Shown here: positions 37,728 to 49,680 of the stretch, piece by piece | Layout of the letters: every line of letters starts with the position of its first letter | Position numbering within the stretch: position 1 is the stretch's first letter | From: Natrinema salinisoli | Lineage (GTDB): Archaea > Halobacteriota > Halobacteria > Halobacteriales > Natrialbaceae | Direction: 5' to 3' | Assembly: GCF_020405205.1 (NCBI RefSeq) | Contig: NZ_CP084469.1 | Span: 3,844,001-3,908,000, forward strand | Length of the DNA: 64,000 nucleotides | Notes under the pieces: model-generated | What the model was told of the DNA's origin: nothing | Database searches by the model: none | Seen by the model: only the letters and a program-made list of their open reading frames with translations | Made by a program: the position numbers and the translations under genes

Positions 37728-39368
37728 ATGGCGGGGAATAGCGGTGGCCGGGACGGGGGCCGCCTACGGCGGCGCTCGCTACTCGAGGGGGTAGGAGCGC
37801 TCGGAGTCACCGGGCTGGCTGGCTGTATCCGCAGCAACAGCATCGAAGCCGACGGTCCGGCCGAAGAGTTGATTCAGGAGGGGTTCGAGGCGACGGAAAT
37901 CGAACCGCCGTTCGAAACGACCATCGCGATCACCGAGGGCACCGAACGGAGCCGATTCGCGGAACTCCTCGAAGTCGCGCTCGAGGACACCGGCTTCTTC
38001 GACGTCTCGATTTCGGAATACAAGTGGACGACCTACCTCGAGCGCTTGACCACGGCGGCCGACGACGGTGAGAATGCCCTCTTTATCGTCAGCTGGACCG
38101 GTGGCTGGGATCCCGACGACTACGTTAACATGTTGTTTCACTCGGACAATCACACGCCCGACGGGCTCAACGTCAACCACTACGCCAGCGACACCGTCGA
38201 CGACTACATCGACGACGGGCTCGAGGAAACGGAGCTCGACGAGCGGGTCGATATCTACCGGCAGCTACAGGAACACCTGGTCGCCGATTCCCCAGTCTCG
38301 TTCGTCCGCGTGAGCGAAGCGTCGCACGTCTGGAACGCCGACGCGATTAGCGGCTGGCAGGCGTACCCGCTCGAGTCGGGAACGTACAACGCGGTATACG
38401 CTCCCTGGGCGGGCGTCTATACGGATCTCGACGGCGACGAGTTCGTCGGCGATCTCGGAAGCGATATCTCGACCACCGACCCGGTTTCGATGAACGATAC
38501 GGCCTCGAGTCAGGCGACCCAACTCGTCTACGAGGGCCTCACGGGGGTAGACTTCGACGGCGCGGTCCAGCCGGTCCTGGCCGACGAGTGGGAGCGGCTC
38601 GACCCGATGACCTACCGGTTTACCCTCAGAGACGGCGTGCAGTTCCACAACGGCGAGGAGCTGACCGCCGACCACGTCAAACGATCGTTCGAACGGTACG
38701 AGGGCACCCCTCGAGAGTCCGACGTCTACGACTGGTACGAGACCATCGATATCGTCGACGACCGTACGATCGACATTCACTGCTGGCGGGAGTACGGCCC
38801 CTTCGAAAAACGGTTGTTCGACCTTCCGATCGTCCCGATGGCGGCCATCGACGGCGACCGCGACCTCGAGTCGGAACCGATCGGAACCGGCCCCTACCGG
38901 TTCGCCGACTACCAATCCGGCAATCACTGGCGGCTCGAACGGTTCGACGACTACTGGTTCGGCGGCTCGGAGGCAGTCCCCGCGACGCCACCGGCCGAGA
39001 CGGTGCGGCTCGAGATCATCACCGAAGCTGCGTCCCGGCAGGGCGCACTCGACGTCGGCGATATCGACTTCAGTTCCGGCGTTCCGTCTGCGAGTCTGTC
39101 CGACCTGGCGGCCGACGACGCGTACGGCGTCGATCGCCGGATCGGCGGCGGATTCGATATGGTGATCTATCCGCTCTACCACGGCCCGTTTACCAACGAG
39201 CTTGTCCGCCGGGGGTGTAACATGCTGATTCCCCGTCAAACGATTCTCGAGGACGTGTATCACGGTCTCGGGCAACCGGCGTACGTCCCGATCTCGCCGC
39301 TCCTCGAGGACTACACGGACGAAGCGTTCGAAGAGCGAATCGCCGAAACGTACGTTCAGCCGACCTGA
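37728..39368 (+). CDS. dppA: peptide ABC substrate-binding lipoprotein, apparently circularly permuted
   Basis: 546 residues from ATG 37728. Tat-type signal with lipobox TGLAGCIR (Cys33). This is an extracytoplasmic binding protein of SBP family 5, but the usual order is reversed. Residues about 44-215 hold what is normally C-terminal: AEELIQEGFE, LFIVSWTGGWDPDDYVNMLF, ERVDIYRQLQEHLVADSPVS. Residues about 240-546 hold what is normally N-terminal and middle: TQLVYEGLTGVDFDGAVQPV, FTLRDGVQFHNGEELTADHV, IGTGPYRFADYQSGNHWRLE and, at the very end, RRGCNMLIPRQTILEDVYHG. Each part occurs once, and total length is normal. It is followed by permeases 13 bases later. Confidence 0.9.
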   Translation: MAGNSGGRDGGRLRRRSLLEGVGALGVTGLAGCIRSNSIEADGPAEELIQEGFEATEIEPPFETTIAITEGTERSRFAELLEVALEDTGFFDVSISEYKWTTYLERLTTAADDGENALFIVSWTGGWDPDDYVNMLFHSDNHTPDGLNVNHYASDTVDDYIDDGLEETELDERVDIYRQLQEHLVADSPVSFVRVSEASHVWNADAISGWQAYPLESGTYNAVYAPWAGVYTDLDGDEFVGDLGSDISTTDPVSMNDTASSQATQLVYEGLTGVDFDGAVQPVLADEWERLDPMTYRFTLRDGVQFHNGEELTADHVKRSFERYEGTPRESDVYDWYETIDIVDDRTIDIHCWREYGPFEKRLFDLPIVPMAAIDGDRDLESEPIGTGPYRFADYQSGNHWRLERFDDYWFGGSEAVPATPPAETVRLEIITEAASRQGALDVGDIDFSSGVPSASLSDLAADDAYGVDRRIGGGFDMVIYPLYHGPFTNELVRRGCNMLIPRQTILEDVYHGLGQPAYVPISPLLEDYTDEAFEERIAETYVQPT

Positions 39369-39380
39369 CCTGGATCACCA

Positions 39381-40328
39381 ATGTCGCTGGGTCGATACGT
39401 TCTCACGCGAGTGCTGGTCACGGTTCCAGTCCTGCTCGGCGTCACCGCGCTCACGTTCTCGTTTCTCCACGTGCTCCCGGGCGACCCGATCGACGTGATC
39501 GTCGGCTTTCGGACCGTCAGTCCCGCGACCGAGGCGTCGATCCGAGCCGAGTACCACCTCGACGAGCCGCTGTGGAAACAGTACCTGCTGTGGTTGCGGG
39601 ACGCGATCGCGCTCGAATTCGGGCGCTCGCCGATCTCCGGCCGGAGCGTCACGGCGACGATCGGTCGGCGACTTCCCGCGACGGTCGCACTCGGCGGGGC
39701 GGCGTGGCTCCTCGCGCTCGCGATCGGCGTGCCGGCCGGGATCGTCGCTGCGGTCAAGCGGGGCGAGCCGGCCGACGAACTCACTCGGCTCGGGGCACTC
39801 GCCGGGATCGCGACGCCGAACTTCTGGCTCGGCCTGATCCTGTTGTTGGTGTTCAGCGTCCGGCTGGGCTGGTTCCGCGTCATTCCGCCGGACGCACCGC
39901 TGGCGAGTCTCGCGATGGCGAAGTTCATGATCCTGCCGACGATCACGCTTGGGACGGCCTCGGCCGCACTCGTCACGCGACTGTTGCGATCCTCGATGCG
40001 GCAGGAACTCGACGCGCCCTACGTCAGGACGGCCCGCGCGAAGGGGCTCCGCGAGCGGACGGTGATCCTGAAACACGTCCTGCGGAACTCCCTGTTGCCG
40101 GTCGTGACCGTCGCCGGCCTCCAGCTGGCGTTTCTGGTCGACGGCGCCGTCGTCGTCGAACAGATCTTCTCGTGGCCGGGCATGGGGCGGCTGCTGGTTC
40201 GGTCCATCCTGCAGCGAGACTACCCCGTCATCCAGGCCGCCGTCCTGGTCATCGGCGTCTCGATCGTCCTCGCGAACCTGCTCGTCGACATCGTCTACGC
40301 GCTCCTCGACCCACGAATTCGATACTAA
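39381..40328 (+). CDS. dppB: peptide ABC transporter permease DppB-like
   Basis: 315 residues, six TM helices. N-terminus LGRYVLTRVLVTVPVLLGVT and HVLPGDPIDVI, then YHLDEPLWKQYLLWL are typical of DppB/OppB. The EAA cytoplasmic loop is VRTARAKGLRERTVILKHVLRNSLLP (about 213-238), which contacts the ATPases. Ends with LLVDIVYALLDPRIRY, the standard closing motif. Second gene of the five-gene operon, three bases before dppC. Confidence 0.95.
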   Translation: MSLGRYVLTRVLVTVPVLLGVTALTFSFLHVLPGDPIDVIVGFRTVSPATEASIRAEYHLDEPLWKQYLLWLRDAIALEFGRSPISGRSVTATIGRRLPATVALGGAAWLLALAIGVPAGIVAAVKRGEPADELTRLGALAGIATPNFWLGLILLLVFSVRLGWFRVIPPDAPLASLAMAKFMILPTITLGTASAALVTRLLRSSMRQELDAPYVRTARAKGLRERTVILKHVLRNSLLPVVTVAGLQLAFLVDGAVVVEQIFSWPGMGRLLVRSILQRDYPVIQAAVLVIGVSIVLANLLVDIVYALLDPRIRY

Positions 40329-40331
40329 CGA

Positions 40332-41453
40332 ATGAGCGACCGACATCCCACTACCGAACGCGGCCGGATTCGCATCGTCGGCTTCGACGAGCCGGAATCG
40401 GACGACCGCGACGGTGACTCGCAGGCCTCGAGTACTCCAACGGGGGAGGCGAGCACCGAGACCGAACCGCGTTCGCCGACGGCAGCGGCGGCGACGGAGA
40501 CGACGGCGGAGGGACCGGACAGACGGCGACTCGAGGACGCCGTCCGCCGGTTCCGTCGCAACCGAACGGCGATGCTGGGAGTGACAGTCATCGCCGTCAT
40601 GGCGGTGCTCGCGATCTTCGCACGACCGATCGAGGTTTCGACGGCTGAGTATACGATCACGCTCCAGCCGTTCGCGCTGGCTCCGCACGATCCCCACGAG
40701 CCGTTCGTCGGCGCGGCGAACGCCCCGCCCTCCTGGGACCACCCGTTCGGAACCGACTGGGCCGGGCGAGATCAGTTCGCCCGGGTGCTCGTCGGCGGCC
40801 GCTACACCCTGAGCATCGGCCTCGTCGCGGTCCTGCTCGCGCTGTGCGTCGGGGTTCCCCTCGGCGCAGTCGCGGGCTATTTCGGCGGCCGGATCGACGA
40901 ACTCGTCATGCGCATCGTCGACGTGCTGTACGCCTTTCCGTTCCTGGTCCTCGCGATCGCGATCGTCCCGATCCTCGATCCGATCCCGATCCCGGGGCGG
41001 GGGTTCTGGGAGGTGGTTCTCGCACTCACCGTTACCGGCTGGATCGGCTACGCGAGACTGTTACGCGGCGAGATCCTCTCGATTCGCGAGCGCGAATACG
41101 TGACGGCTGCGACCGCGCTCGGCGTCCCCGATCGGACGATCATCCGGCGACACGTCGTTCCGAACGCGATCGCACCCGTCGTCGTCCAAGCCACGCTCAA
41201 CGTCGGCACGGTCGTTCTCGCGGCGGCGGCGCTCGGCTTCCTCGGGCTCGGCCTCGAACCCGGCAGCGCGGAGTGGGGTGCGATGCTGTCGCGCGGTCGC
41301 GACTCGCTCCTGCAGGGCCACTGGCACGTCACCGTCTTCCCCGGGCTCGCGATCTTCCTGTTCGTGCTGGCGATCAACCTGGTCGGCGACGGGATCAACG
41401 ACGCGATCGATCCCCGCGAGGACGCGAGCGACGACCGGAGGCGGATGCGCTGA
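40332..41453 (+). CDS. dppC: peptide ABC transporter permease DppC-like
   Basis: 373 residues. A long polar N-terminal extension rich in Glu/Asp/Ser/Thr (about 1-70) precedes the family motif RRFRRNRTAMLGVTVIAVMAV. Then HPFGTDWAGRDQFARVLVGGRYTL, six TM segments in all and the EAA loop REYVTAATALGVPDRTIIRRHVVPNA. Ends with FLFVLAINLVGDGINDAIDPR. The last TGA overlaps the ATG of dppD by one base, which implies translational coupling. The extension is longer than in most bacterial DppC. Confidence 0.95.
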   Translation: MSDRHPTTERGRIRIVGFDEPESDDRDGDSQASSTPTGEASTETEPRSPTAAAATETTAEGPDRRRLEDAVRRFRRNRTAMLGVTVIAVMAVLAIFARPIEVSTAEYTITLQPFALAPHDPHEPFVGAANAPPSWDHPFGTDWAGRDQFARVLVGGRYTLSIGLVAVLLALCVGVPLGAVAGYFGGRIDELVMRIVDVLYAFPFLVLAIAIVPILDPIPIPGRGFWEVVLALTVTGWIGYARLLRGEILSIREREYVTAATALGVPDRTIIRRHVVPNAIAPVVVQATLNVGTVVLAAAALGFLGLGLEPGSAEWGAMLSRGRDSLLQGHWHVTVFPGLAIFLFVLAINLVGDGINDAIDPREDASDDRRRMR

Positions 41454-42547
41454 TGGCGCTGCTCGAGGTCGAGGATCTGGTCGTCCAGTTCTACACCGAC
41501 GACGGCGTCGTCCGGGCGGTCGACGGCATCAGCTACGAGATCCGCGCGGGCGAGACGGTCGGGCTGGTCGGCGAGAGCGGGGCGGGCAAGAGCGTCGCCA
41601 GCCTCGCGCTCCTCCGCCTGATCCGGTCACCCGGTGAGATCGTCAGCGGGGCGATCCGGTTCGACGGCCGGAACCTCCTCGAGTGCTCGGATCGCGAACT
41701 CAGGGAACTCCGGGGGAACGACATCGCGATGGTGTTTCAGGACGCCGACGCGGCGCTCAATCCCGTCTACTCCGTCGGCGAACAGATCGCCGAAGCAGTG
41801 CGCGCCCACGAAGACGTCACCGACGACGCCGCCCGCGACCGGGCGATCGCGCTCCTCGAGCGGGTCGGAATCCCGGAGCCGGCGACGCGCTACGCCGATT
41901 ACCCGCACGAGTTCTCCGGCGGGATGCAACAGCGGGTCGTGATCGCCATGGCGCTGGCCTGCGACCCAGCGCTGCTCGTCTGTGACGAGCCGACGACGGG
42001 GCTCGACGTCACCGTTCAGGCCGGCGTCCTCGAGTTGCTCGCGGACCTCGCTCGGGAGTCCGAGACGGCGATCCAGCTCGTCACCCACGACCTCGGGATC
42101 GTCGCGGAGCTGTGCGATCGGGTCCTGGTCCAGTACGCCGGCGAGATCGTCGAGCGCGCACCGGTCGAGGAGCTCTACTACGATCCCAAGCATCCCTACA
42201 CCGTCGGACTGCTTGCCTCGATCCCCCGGCTCGGTGCCGACAGCGATCGCCTCGCGACCGTTCCCGGAACGACGCCGAGCCTCGTCGACCCGCCGACCGG
42301 CTGTCGATTTCACCCCCGCTGTCCCTATGCCGAGCCGGCGTGTGCCAGACGTCACCCGCGGCTCGTCGAGACGGACTCGGAGACGCCGGCGGCCGACGCG
42401 GGTCCCGAGTCACACCTCGCGGCCTGCCTCGAGTACACCGGCGACCTCGAGGACGGTCTGGACTACGAGGTACAGGTACGGGACGAGACGGGCGGCGAGT
42501 ATCACGAACGGGAGCGGGAACGGACCGAGCGAGGTGAGCCGGAGTGA
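41453..42547 (+). CDS. dppD: peptide ABC transporter ATP-binding protein DppD-like
   Basis: 364 residues from ATG 41453. ABC ATPase with Walker A GESGAGKSVASLAL, Q-loop MVFQDADAALNPVYSV, signature FSGGMQQRVVIAMAL, Walker B LLVCDEPTTGLDVTVQ and switch His in LVTHDLG. The oligopeptide/dipeptide C-terminal extension has CRFHPRCPYAEPACARRHP, whose Cys cluster can bind an iron-sulfur centre in related proteins. The last codons overlap dppF by four bases. Confidence 0.95.
   Translation: MALLEVEDLVVQFYTDDGVVRAVDGISYEIRAGETVGLVGESGAGKSVASLALLRLIRSPGEIVSGAIRFDGRNLLECSDRELRELRGNDIAMVFQDADAALNPVYSVGEQIAEAVRAHEDVTDDAARDRAIALLERVGIPEPATRYADYPHEFSGGMQQRVVIAMALACDPALLVCDEPTTGLDVTVQAGVLELLADLARESETAIQLVTHDLGIVAELCDRVLVQYAGEIVERAPVEELYYDPKHPYTVGLLASIPRLGADSDRLATVPGTTPSLVDPPTGCRFHPRCPYAEPACARRHPRLVETDSETPAADAGPESHLAACLEYTGDLEDGLDYEVQVRDETGGEYHERERERTERGEPE
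42531..42537 (+). promoter_or_regulatory. Shine-Dalgarno site before dppF
   Basis: GAGGTGA, six bases before the GTG at 42544, within the end of dppD. It supports the GTG start and internal re-initiation. Confidence 0.6.
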
Positions 42548-43866
42548 CGACGGTCGACGACGAGCCCCTGATCCGGGCGGCGGGCCTCGAGAAGCACTAC
42601 ACCACCGCCGACGGCTTCCTCGATCGGCTCCTCGGGCGCGCGGAGACGGTTCGAGCGGTCGACGGCGTCGACCTCGAAATCCGCGCGGGCGAGACCCTCG
42701 GACTGGTCGGCGAGAGCGGCTGCGGCAAGACGACGCTCGGCCGAACGCTCGTCCGGTTGCTCGAGCCGACTGCCGGCACGATCACCTACCGGGGAACCGA
42801 GGTGACGGGCTGCTCCCGGTCGCGACTCCGGGAGCTTCGGACCGAGATCCAGTACGTCTTCCAGAACCCGATGGCCAGTCTCAACCCGCAGTTGACGGTC
42901 GCCGATATCGTCGGGGAAGCCCTCGAGGTTCACGATATCGTGCCCGCCGAGCGACGCGACGAGCGCGTTCGGGAACTGCTCGAAACGGTCGGACTGCAGG
43001 CCGGACACGCGAGCCGGTACCCCCGCGAGTTTTCGGGCGGCCAGCGCCAGCGAGTCGCCATCGCTCGCGCGCTCGCCGTCGAACCGAATTTTATCGTCTG
43101 TGACGAGCCCGTCTCCGCGCTCGACGTCTCGGTACAGGCGCGGATCCTCAACCTGCTGTCCGACCTGCAGGACGAGTTCGACCTCTCCTATCTGTTCATC
43201 GCCCACGATCTCTCGGTGGTCGAGCACGTCGCCGATCGGGTGGCGGTGATGTATCTCGGGGAGATCGTCGAAACCGGAACGACCGCCGAGGTCTTCGACG
43301 CCCCGTCACACCCCTACACTGAGGCGCTGCTGTCGGCCATCCCCGAACCCGACCCCTGCTGGGAGGGCGACCGGATCGTCCTCGAGGGAGACGTGCCCTC
43401 ACCGACCGATCCCCCCTCGGGCTGTCGGTTCCACACGCGCTGTCCGAAGGTCGTTCCGCCCGCGGAATACGACCTGACGGACGATTCGTTCCGTGCTATT
43501 ATGCGACTCCGAACCCGACTCGCGAAGGCGGACGCCGACGCGGAGCCCGAGACACTCCTCCCGCGATCCGACGACTCCGAACCCGTCGGTGACGGAATCC
43601 GGGAAGTCCACGGGATTCCCCACCACCTGCGCGATCCGGACGCGGACGCCGCTCTCTCGGACGCGCTCGAGGCCGCCGCTGCCGGCGATCTCGAGGCCGC
43701 ACGGGACCGGCTCGCGTCGGCGTTCGAGACGCCCTGCGAGACGGTCGAGCCGAAATTGACCGACGGAACGGCACAGCATCCGATCGCCTGCCACCGGTTC
43801 GACGAGCGGTTCGCGGGCGACGCCGAAGCAGCCGTCGACGACATCTCATCCAATAGAACCGACTGA
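42544..43866 (+). CDS. dppF: peptide ABC transporter ATP-binding protein DppF-like
   Basis: 440 residues from GTG 42544, supported by an SD. ABC ATPase with [18 protein letters not shown] (Walker A), [15 protein letters not shown] (Q-loop), [15 protein letters not shown] (signature), [16 protein letters not shown] (Walker B) and [10 protein letters not shown]. The conserved C-terminal Cys-type motif [13 protein letters not shown] is present. About 100 further acidic residues ([20 protein letters not shown] ... [20 protein letters not shown]) extend beyond the normal family end and are of unknown purpose. Last gene of the transporter operon. Confidence 0.95.
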
Positions 43867-43873
43867 ACACCCA

Positions 43874-44404
43874 ATGAAACGAATCTACGACTCCGCCGCG
43901 CTCGAGCGGACTGACGACGATCCGTTCGCGCCGGAGCGTTCGGGAGGAGACGACGGCGGTTCGCGAGCGATCGACTGGGCGGCGTTCAGCCACGCGTTCG
44001 CGCCGACGGTGGTGCGCCACCGCGCGATCGACGTCAGCATCTCGACCGACAAACGACGGTACGCGCCCGGCGAACCGGTCGAGATAACCGTCGAGTTTCG
44101 CAACCGGATCCCGTTCCCGGTCCGAATCCGAACGGACTCGCCGGAGCGCTGGCACTGGGCCGTCGACGGCCATCGCAACGCCTCGCAGGTTCCGCGAGCG
44201 GTTCCCGATCGGCCCGCCGCCTTCTCCTTCGCTCGAAACGAGTGCAAGCGCTTCCGTCGCCGGTGGCCACAGCGCGTGCAGGTCGCGGACGACGAGTGGG
44301 AACCCGTCGACCCGGGCAGCTACGCGATCGACGTGCGAGTCACTCGTGACGATGCGAGCGATCGAGGGCTCGCTGCTCGTACCGCGATCGAGATCGTGGA
44401 TTGA
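43874..44404 (+). CDS. small Ig-like (BsuPI-like) protein
   Basis: 176 residues, starting seven bases after dppF, so probably in the same operon. A charged N-terminus (1-50) leads to a beta-sandwich pattern with ISTDKRRYAPGEPVEITVEF, NRIPFPVRIRTDSPERWHWA and DPGSYAIDVRVTRDDAS, resembling BsuPI/Ig-like domains that bind peptides or proteinases. It has no signal peptide, so it is cytoplasmic. A link to peptide uptake is only by position. Confidence 0.75.
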   Translation: MKRIYDSAALERTDDDPFAPERSGGDDGGSRAIDWAAFSHAFAPTVVRHRAIDVSISTDKRRYAPGEPVEITVEFRNRIPFPVRIRTDSPERWHWAVDGHRNASQVPRAVPDRPAAFSFARNECKRFRRRWPQRVQVADDEWEPVDPGSYAIDVRVTRDDASDRGLAARTAIEIVD

Positions 44405-47171: not shown

Positions 47172-47624
47172 CTACCGCTGGTCCTGATACACCTGCCAGG
47201 TGTAAAGGCACTCACAGATGTAGTTGACGAAGAACCCGGCTCCGATACCGATCACGTTCGCCAGCATGAGTCCGACGCCGAAGTGCCCGGTCAGCACCAT
47301 TAATACTACCAGCGTCACCAGCAACCCGCCGAAGCGGACCACGTTCGAGAGCATGAATCGGCGCCACAGCGCTCGCAGTCCGCCCTCGCCGTAGCTCGCG
47401 AACGTCCACTGTTCGTTGATCACGAAGATGACTGCAATACCGAGCTCCCAGGAGAGGAGCTTTGAGACGACCGTTCCGAGGGACATAGCCTCGACCAGGA
47501 ATACGAGCGCAGCAGTGTCGATGGCCGCACCGAAGGTCCCGACCCCGACGTACAGTCCGACCCGCGTCGTCGAGCACAGCGCACGAACCCGCGTTCGGAT
47601 CGTCTCTGGGAGGGAGTTACTCAT
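47172..47624 (-). CDS. GtrA family membrane protein
   Basis: 150 residues with four TM segments: RVGLYVGVGTFGAAIDTAAL, SWELGIAVIFVINEQWTF (N-E-Q-W-T-F motif), RFGGLLVTLVVLMVLTGHFG and LANVIGIGAGFFVNYICECL. A second GtrA, only distantly like the one at 31247. It stands alone beside tRNA-iMet and could be cargo of a past integration, or simply a neighbour. Its likely job is membrane transfer of lipid-linked sugars. Confidence 0.88.
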   Translation of the reverse strand: MSNSLPETIRTRVRALCSTTRVGLYVGVGTFGAAIDTAALVFLVEAMSLGTVVSKLLSWELGIAVIFVINEQWTFASYGEGGLRALWRRFMLSNVVRFGGLLVTLVVLMVLTGHFGVGLMLANVIGIGAGFFVNYICECLYTWQVYQDQR

Positions 47625-47903
47625 CGTCGTCTCCGTCCTCGAGCCTACCGGTCACTGCCGACGGCACCACTTTCGGTCTTACGATTACTGCATGGATAGT
47701 TGGAACGCGATCGTGGAATACGCTCCCCTCCAGTCCCCCTGTCCCGAGCATTCGTCAATATTCTTCCAGCAGAGAACCATAAAGATTCGGACAAGAGTTG
47801 GACGAGTGAAATGAAGCGACCGACGACCCACGTCAGTGGTCTCCGAAACTACCGCCCAGAACCGAGCGCGGCGTCCGGCCTCCGTTATCGACCGACGAGA
47901 ATA

Positions 47904-48182
47904 CTAGATCGCGAGATCGCTCTTCGGGCGGATGACCTCGACGTCCTCGGCGTCGACGCGATCGACGTCGAGGAAGTGTGGCGTGAAGTTTCGCTTCTCG
48001 TAGTCCTCGTACTCGTCCTCGGACCCGACGGTACACCAGAGCTGGACGCGATCGGGCCCGTGGTACTCGCCGTTTCTGTTGATCCCGAAGCAGACCACCT
48101 CCGATTCCGCCTCGTCTCCCTCGTATCGGATGATGGCCCCGTTCCGAATGCCGGGATCCCCGTGGATGATAAGCTGCTTCAT
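47904..48182 (-). CDS. HAH_0734-type small conserved protein
   Basis: 92 residues from ATG 48182 (MKQLIIHGDPGIRNGAIIRY). The frame stays open to 48290 but the extension is not credible. It contains VVCFGINRNGEYHGPDRVQLW, SEDEYEDYEKRNFTPHFLDVD, well conserved among haloarchaea as I recall under the name HAH_0734 family. It is divergent from the ribosomal operon, as expected if linked to translation. No known activity. Confidence 0.82.
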   Translation of the reverse strand: MKQLIIHGDPGIRNGAIIRYEGDEAESEVVCFGINRNGEYHGPDRVQLWCTVGSEDEYEDYEKRNFTPHFLDVDRVDAEDVEVIRPKSDLAI

Positions 48183-48378
48183 GGCCCTGACTTCACAGGA
48201 GAGCGGATTAAACGCTTCGGAGACCCGTCGCCTCGAGCATCCCGGCGACCGCCTGCGGACGCCAGTACGCGCACGAGCAGACGGCGTCACTGATCGCGGT
48301 CCGACGGTTTCGGACGTGAGCGACTCGAGCGAGCCGTCATTTTCCCGTACGGTGACCGGGACGGCCGGCTATCAAACG

Positions 48379-48388
48379 CTTTTTAAAC
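48379..48388 (+). promoter_or_regulatory. promoter of the rpl44e operon
   Basis: CTTTTTAAAC about 40 bases before ATG 48423; the mRNA would start near 48410 with a short leader holding GTGAG about ten bases before the start. Confidence 0.6.
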
Positions 48389-48422
48389 GGCGCTATCTTA
48401 GCCCACGGCAAGTGAGATAACC

Positions 48423-48704
48423 ATGCAGATGCCACGCCGATTCAATACGTACTGTCCGTTCTGTAACGAGCACCACGAACACGAAGTCGAGAAGTCCCGA
48501 ACGGGCCGTTCCTCCGGCATGAAATGGGACGCTCGCCGTACCCGACGCAACAGCTCGACCATCGGGAACTCCGGTCGCTTCTCGAAAGTGCCCGGCGGCG
48601 AAAAGCCGACCAAGAAGACCGACCTCAAGTACCGCTGCAGCGAATGCGGCAAGGCCCACCTCCGCGAGGGATGGCGCGCCGGCCGACTCGAGTTCCAGGA
48701 GTGA
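48423..48704 (+). CDS. rpl44e: ribosomal protein eL42 (L44e)
   Basis: 93 residues with two zinc knuckles [12 protein letters not shown] (about 11-22) and [12 protein letters not shown] (about 74-85), and the basic central part [20 protein letters not shown] that meets the ribosomal E site. First gene of the operon rpl44e-rps27e-eif2a-nop10-PAC2, a layout conserved in archaea. Length is normal. Confidence 0.96.
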
Positions 48705-48709
48705 TACCA

Positions 48710-48883
48710 ATGGCAGGAAATTTCTACAGCGTTCGATGCAGTGATTGCGAGAACGAACAGACCGTCTTCGGCAAGGCCTCCTCGGAGGTCGCCTGTGCCG
48801 TCTGCGGGACGACGCTCGTGCGACCGACCGGCGGCAAAGCCGAGATCGAACACGAGATCCTCGAAACAGTCGAGTCACGATGA
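48710..48883 (+). CDS. rps27e: ribosomal protein eS27 (S27e)
   Basis: 57 residues from ATG 48710 ([20 protein letters not shown]). A four-Cys zinc ribbon CSDC ... CAVCGTTL is complete. Starts five bases after the rpl44e stop, and its own TGA overlaps the ATG of the next gene. The frame is open upstream, overlapping rpl44e, but the ATG is clear from homology. Confidence 0.96.
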
Positions 48884-49680
48884 AGTACAGCGGCTGGCCC
48901 GATCCCGGCGAACTCGTCGTCGGCAAGATCGACGAAATCGAGGACTTCGGCGTCTTCGTCGATCTCGAGGAGTACGAGGACAAGCGCGGTCTGATCCACA
49001 TCTCCGAAGTCGCGAGCGGCTGGATCAAGAACGTCCGTGATCACGTCCGTGAGGGCCAGATCGCCGTCTGCAAGGTCCTCGACGTCGACGAGAGCTCGCA
49101 GCAGATCGATCTCTCGCTGAAGGACGTCAACGACCACCAGCGCTCCGACAAGATCCAGGACTGGAAAAACGAGCAGAAGGCCGACAACTGGATGGAGCTG
49201 GCCTTCGGCGAGGAGATGGAGGACGAGGTCTACACCGCCATCGCCAACGAACTGATCGCCATCCACGGCGGGCTCTACGAGGGCTTCAAGCAGGCCGCGA
49301 TCCACGGTGAGGAGGCACTCGAGGACACCGATCTCGACGACGACGAGATCGAAGCGATCGTCGACACGGCCCGCGAGAACGTCTCGGTGCCCTACGTCAA
49401 CGTCACCGGCTACGTCGACCTCGAGAACCCCACCGACAGCGGCGTCGACGGGATCCGCGAGGCACTCGAAGCGGCCGAAGGCAACGGCGAAGTCCCCGAG
49501 GAAGTCGATCTCGAGGTGAGCTACGTCGGCGCACCCGAGTATCGAATCAAAGTGCAGGCGCCCAACTACAAGACCGCCGAGTCCCAGCTCGAGGAGAGCG
49601 CACAGCGAGCGGTCGCCGCGATCGAAGGCCACGGTGGCTCCGGGCAGTACCACCGCGAGCGCCGCACCGACGACGAATAA
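48880..49680 (+). CDS. eif2a: translation initiation factor aIF2 alpha subunit
   Basis: 266 residues from ATG 48880 ([20 protein letters not shown]). The S1 RNA-binding domain is at 10-85 ([40 protein letters not shown]), then the helical middle ([20 protein letters not shown]) and the C-terminal alpha/beta domain that contacts gamma ([20 protein letters not shown]). Delivers initiator tRNA-Met with the beta and gamma subunits; its tRNA is also in this window. Overlaps rps27e by four bases and nop10 by one. Confidence 0.96.

Follow-up and report, generated by a model that had tools for sequence, protein, structure and literature searches.

The question raised by this locus was whether the product of the gene at 37728..39368 (plus strand; 546 aa and stop) is a family 5 binding protein (SBP) with the two parts of its chain in exchanged order, or a normal-order protein with something added in front. 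Proteins of this family are two-lobed (Venus) flytraps. The gene was analysed within a window, the whole stretch of 64,000 nucleotides of Natrinema salinisoli DNA to which all positions refer, by translation, Pfam and PDB matches, a profile of normal-order relatives and rotated alignment. The first-pass annotation had read the protein as truly circularly permuted and the dpp-type operon around it as otherwise normal, and both the swapped profile matches and the rotated alignment described below bore this out. All the segments it quoted were found in the translation at the residues given, two of them shifted by one residue (AEELIQ starts at residue 45, TQLVYEG at 264). The chain opens with a twin-arginine lipoprotein signal (RRRSLLEGVGALGVTGLAGC; 37728..37826, plus strand) that ends in the lipobox Cys33; R15, R16 and C33 are invariant in the orthologues. 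A new spacer (residues 34-44; 37827..37859, plus strand), delimited by orthologue alignment and rotated alignment, leads from the lipobox to the permuted chain.

SBP_bac_5 (PF00496) was the sole Pfam family detected (E=9e-59; 199.8 bits against a cut-off of 32.4). The match fell into two stretches, the better of which (residues 280-534) corresponded to profile positions 2-259 of 368, i.e. to its beginning. As the Pfam model is largely confined to the middle of the fold, a single Pfam match alone could not tell a permutation from an added domain. PDB chain 5u4o matched twice with the order swapped (query 245-532 to chain 52-339, query 61-190 to chain 362-486), 1xoc and 3m8u gave the same two-piece swapped match, and the pattern was reproduced when a profile of the orthologue group was searched against the PDB sequences; none of the family 5 chains among the PDB matches listed was permuted. 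The N-terminal part of full-length NCBIfam models matched the protein only from residue 235-280 onwards. With the profile of normal-order relatives, residues 11-36 were matched as signal, residues 45-235 as model 355-545 (202 bits) and residues 235-543 as model 41-348 (362 bits). Two swapped pieces were thus obtained in the profile search for which the first-pass annotation had named a single collinear family 5 match as the adverse outcome. Each part of the fold was present once and nothing followed residue 546. It is highly improbable that residues 45-235 form an additional or unrelated N-terminal domain beside a normal-order domain, with the C-terminal part of the SBP lost or encoded elsewhere: this stretch is itself the family's C-terminal part by the profile and is 41% identical to the C-terminal part of a normal orthologue, which refutes that reading.

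The permuted chain can accordingly be laid out in three pieces. The C-terminal part of the normal chain is placed first (residues 45-235, assigned by PDB matches and profile; 37860..38432, plus strand) and the N-terminal part second (residues 236-543, equal to model 41-348 by Pfam and profile; 38433..39356, plus strand). Between them, at about residues 233-241 (38424..38450, plus strand), lies the new junction of the old C terminus with the old N terminus, defined by rotated alignment and purifying selection. For alignment to the normal-order orthologue L068 the protein was rotated at residue ~235, whereupon 232-233 of 505 positions were identical (46%) with 23 gap columns; other permuted/normal pairs reached 44-56% identity after rotation. 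The alignment score rose from 589 unrotated to 1215 rotated. Over all rotations of the mature protein the optimum lay at residues 234-238, which excludes chance as the source of the permuted match. The cut in the normal chain of L068 falls between GEEYMRYD and PEQARELLERGF, directly before the helix that opens the protein studied here (AEELIQEGF). At the join, the old end (..IYAPWANTYTSLGGG; YAPWAGVYTDL) meets the old start (..GDGSELVATLGADVS, after the old lipobox) to give ..VYAPWAGVYTDLDGDEFVGDLGSDIS, where the old N terminus begins DGDEFVGDLGSDIS. No segment was lost and none was doubled. Profile and rotated alignment thus agreed with the earlier placement of the break, which falls immediately ahead of the A-x-x-L-L/I-x-x-G-F helix, and with the view that the signal peptide was retained and no part is missing or repeated. 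As judged from these sequence comparisons, the protein is a genuine, intact circular permutation of a family 5 (SBP_bac_5, cluster C) lipoprotein.

Immediately downstream, all on the plus strand, lie a dppB-type permease (BPD_transp_1; 39381..40328), a dppC-type permease (BPD_transp_1, OppC_N; 40332..41453), a dppD-type ATPase (ABC_tran, oligo_HPY; 41453..42547), a dppF-type ATPase (ABC_tran, oligo_HPY; 42544..43866) and a small gene without Pfam family (43874..44404; 36-72% identity) that closes most of these operons. The gene for the permuted protein is therefore adjoined by the two BPD_transp_1 permeases and two oligo_HPY ATPases used as the operon test for SBP family 5. Within Natrialbaceae, 44 of 125 genomes and 9 of 29 genera gave a strong match to the permuted protein, nearly always as a single collinear piece across almost its whole length. 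Identity went down to 46% within this family and was 43-46% in two genomes of family f3 (G312, G223). All orthologues examined with the normal-order profile showed the signal, then model ~350-545, then model ~33-353. One orthologue (L041; G076:C5:154978-156589) was distributed over two frames and contains an unresolved base, probably through an assembly fault. Viral contigs contained no relative of the protein.

Against six relatives of the Natrinema group, dN/dS ranged over 0.13-0.31 for the two parts and 0.07-0.37 for the short new junction, so that purifying selection acts on all three. Together with an order shared by dozens of genomes, these low values indicate that the rearranged protein is maintained. 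An artefact of assembly or local rearrangement, or a decaying pseudogene in one strain, has next to no probability. The split G076 gene would fit such an origin, though with the unresolved base in its frame, and the reading is refuted by independently assembled genomes of many genera that share the permuted order at 43-94% identity, in frames without stops and with dN/dS well below 1.

Outside these genomes, mainly in family f4, the best match was split: residues 235-543 came first and residues 45-237 followed a few residues later, which is the normal order. These normal-order f4 orthologues (L068-L075, L086, L087) have the same SBP-dppB-dppC-dppD-dppF operon as the permuted ones, in most cases followed by the small gene, and are 42-46% identical in the rotated pairs measured, but differ in chain order. 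In the closest set, dppB was 61-66% identical between permuted and normal-order operons. Having permuted and normal orthologues, 46% identical, in one and the same operon permits a direct comparison of cause and effect.

For the origin trees, all permuted sequences were first restored computationally to normal order and then aligned with normal-order proteins. Permuted rows of the group studied here did not form one clean clade, and two or three changes of order were found in the trees; a single origin within the group was not rejected (p-AU 0.11 for the SBP, 0.29 for dppBCDF). The trees do not resolve the branching among the oldest members of the group, and either a second event or a reversion may have occurred there. 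It is unlikely, all the same, that the permuted order is the older one in this operon group and that the normal order in f4 arose later, by reversion or because a normal gene replaced the permuted one. Normal rows do stand inside or beside permuted ones in both the SBP and the operon trees, but the outgroup operons (L076-L080) are in normal order and the same p-AU values leave a single permuted clade standing.

The first-pass annotation had also held that SBP family 5 is always found in the other order. This was wrong: permuted members are common in haloarchaea and also occur in Alphaproteobacteria. A sequence search of the Natrinema salinisoli genome gave seven SBP_bac_5 genes, three in the usual order and four permuted. 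A second permuted type (G000:C2:334164-336071; L005/L045/L050) encodes 636 aa with the break after the LL-x-x-AG helix and adjoins its own dppB, dppC and a fused double ATPase gene; its relatives extend across the class Halobacteria and into Alphaproteobacteria. Two further permuted lipoprotein genes (G000:C1:44739-46514 and 47554-49314; L049) flank a PAP2-superfamily gene, without a nearby permease, and paired copies of this type (G000:C1:44739-49314) recur in many Natrialbaceae genomes. Relatives of the other permuted genes of this genome are widespread in the class. Permuted proteins of Nitratireductor sp. OM-1 and Ketogulonicigenium vulgare (L197:4881-6479, L198:4854-6530) are annotated simply as substrate-binding proteins, and each gene is followed by two permeases and ATPase genes; their signals, inspected by eye, have no obvious lipobox. 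L177 and L180 (G128:C1:404000-413000, G154:C1:398500-407000) are likewise permuted, with normal-order relatives 45-49% identical over about 595 columns after rotation, and are cut just after the helix that is preceded by the cut in the present protein. An isolated permuted pair on a long branch (L188 and L189; G136:C3, G134:C1) possibly represents another origin. Bacterial tblastn matches spanning the junction in Rhizobium tumorigenes and Thermomicrobium were checked individually and proved to be in normal order. The second N. salinisoli type, the G000:C1:44739-46514 type, L177/L180 and L197/L198 are SBP_bac_5 proteins that also have the C-terminal part first; unlike the group studied here they are broken after the A-x-x-L-L-x-x-A-G helix, and they take separate positions in the trees.

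The order label required five changes in a quick tree of 105 rows. A careful tree of 40 rows also had five in its best topology, at least three of which were forced by well-supported branches. L177/L180 were nested with full support among normal-order proteins, and one common origin of all permuted forms was rejected in the 40-row tree as a single clade (delta lnL 457). Breaks in the closely alignable groups flank one and the same lobe-2 helix, before it in some groups and after it in others; those of the distant groups are known only roughly. SBP family 5 has thus probably been permuted at least three times independently, in the closely alignable groups on one side or the other of this helix, with the anchor moved from lobe 1 to lobe 2 and the cognate permease operon unchanged. 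That several independent breaks recur within so short a segment points to a structural hot spot tolerant of new termini. The permutation in the present protein would have arisen by tandem duplication of the gene or by fusion, after which the outer parts were lost and the signal peptide was retained. The N-C-N-C fusion intermediate of the duplication route was not seen in the loci read; a 1244-residue frame in G331 was considered as such an intermediate and rejected, as this long open frame contains just one copy, in normal order (model 1-545).

AlphaFold2, run on the protein with 5 near-identical sequences, gave pLDDT 30 and pTM 0.23. The structural reading is taken from normal-order relatives. 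In AliD, lobe 1 consists of Domain I (29-63, 191-296, 583-617) and Domain II and lobe 2 of Domain III (297-582), and both chain ends are in Domain I, lobe 1 (PMC11192437). With both ends of the normal family 5 chain in lobe 1, joining them should be tolerable, and the permuted chain would fold into the usual two-lobed flytrap. The cut, placed in lobe 2 by alignment, would mean that the lipid anchor is now attached to, and pulls on, lobe 2 instead of lobe 1. The DppB scoop of E. coli touches both lobes of DppA (PMC12136057). Solute would be bound in the cleft of the permuted protein, which would dock in the usual manner on the DppBC-like permease. The sequence gives no hint that docking is lost, so the function is likely the ordinary one of solute capture and delivery to the adjacent permease. 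Taken together, the gene very probably supplies a Dpp/Opp-type ABC importer with a working, membrane-tethered SBP, one in which the family 5 (cluster C) fold is built from a naturally circularly permuted chain.

The ligand may be something other than a peptide. The amine of the peptide is bound in AliD by an Asp three residues after a Trp (W498/D501; PMC11192437). At this motif the permuted protein has W123-T-G-G126, a correspondence made by motif and not by structure; Gly126 is invariant in an alignment of 15 sequences, and in the majority of normal-order orthologues the motif reads WSGG, WTGG or WSAG. With Gly in place of the OppA-like amine-holding Asp, the earlier label 'peptide-binding' is doubtful and 'dpp' is a name by operon type only. 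Going by these residues, the protein is unlikely to hold a free peptide N terminus in the usual way.

To our knowledge, there are few reports of large two-lobed binding proteins that are circularly permuted in nature. Such a permutation is already published for Tp0684/MglB-2 of T. pallidum, a cluster B protein for which 'Type Ic / cluster Bc' was proposed and for which the authors suggest an adaptation of tethering (PMC4990184). No description of a permutation in SBP5, DppA/OppA or haloarchaea was found in the open literature (the scope being articles outside subscription journals). That the family 5 permutation was selected for altered membrane tethering, as suggested for MglB-2, with the anchor on lobe 2, and was not a neutral accident, is a tentative and rather doubtful proposal. 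It gains from the MglB-2 precedent (PMC4990184), from the finding that the haloarchaeal permuted proteins inspected are lipoproteins and from the breaks near one lobe-2 helix in closely alignable groups; but the permuted relatives in Nitratireductor and Ketogulonicigenium are apparently not lipoproteins, which argues against tethering as the only driver. If multiple permutations with the same operon are confirmed, nature will have repeated one experiment on the topology, tethering and docking of ABC importers several times over, and the move of the anchor between lobes allows the role of tether position in delivery to the permease to be tested. The exchanged order goes unremarked when family profiles and annotation pipelines assign names to these proteins, so that domain-based annotation and structure templates will mislead for a considerable fraction of the binding proteins of haloarchaea and for some of those of bacteria.

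MglB-2 resembles the present protein in being a naturally permuted, tethered binding protein of an ABC importer encoded in a transporter operon; it differs in its cluster B (Type I) fold with a permuted N lobe and in binding glucose (PMC4990184), whereas the present protein belongs by sequence to family 5 and cluster C. Its permuted portion has poor identity (13%) to its counterpart (PMC4990184), as against the 46% between the present protein and an orthologue of opposite order in the same operon. With the SBP_bac_5 / cluster C proteins (DppA, OppA, NikA, 5u4o) the present protein shares both parts of the fold, each once, the conserved motifs, the lipoprotein signal and the dppBCDF-type operon; they differ from it in having the N-terminal part first.
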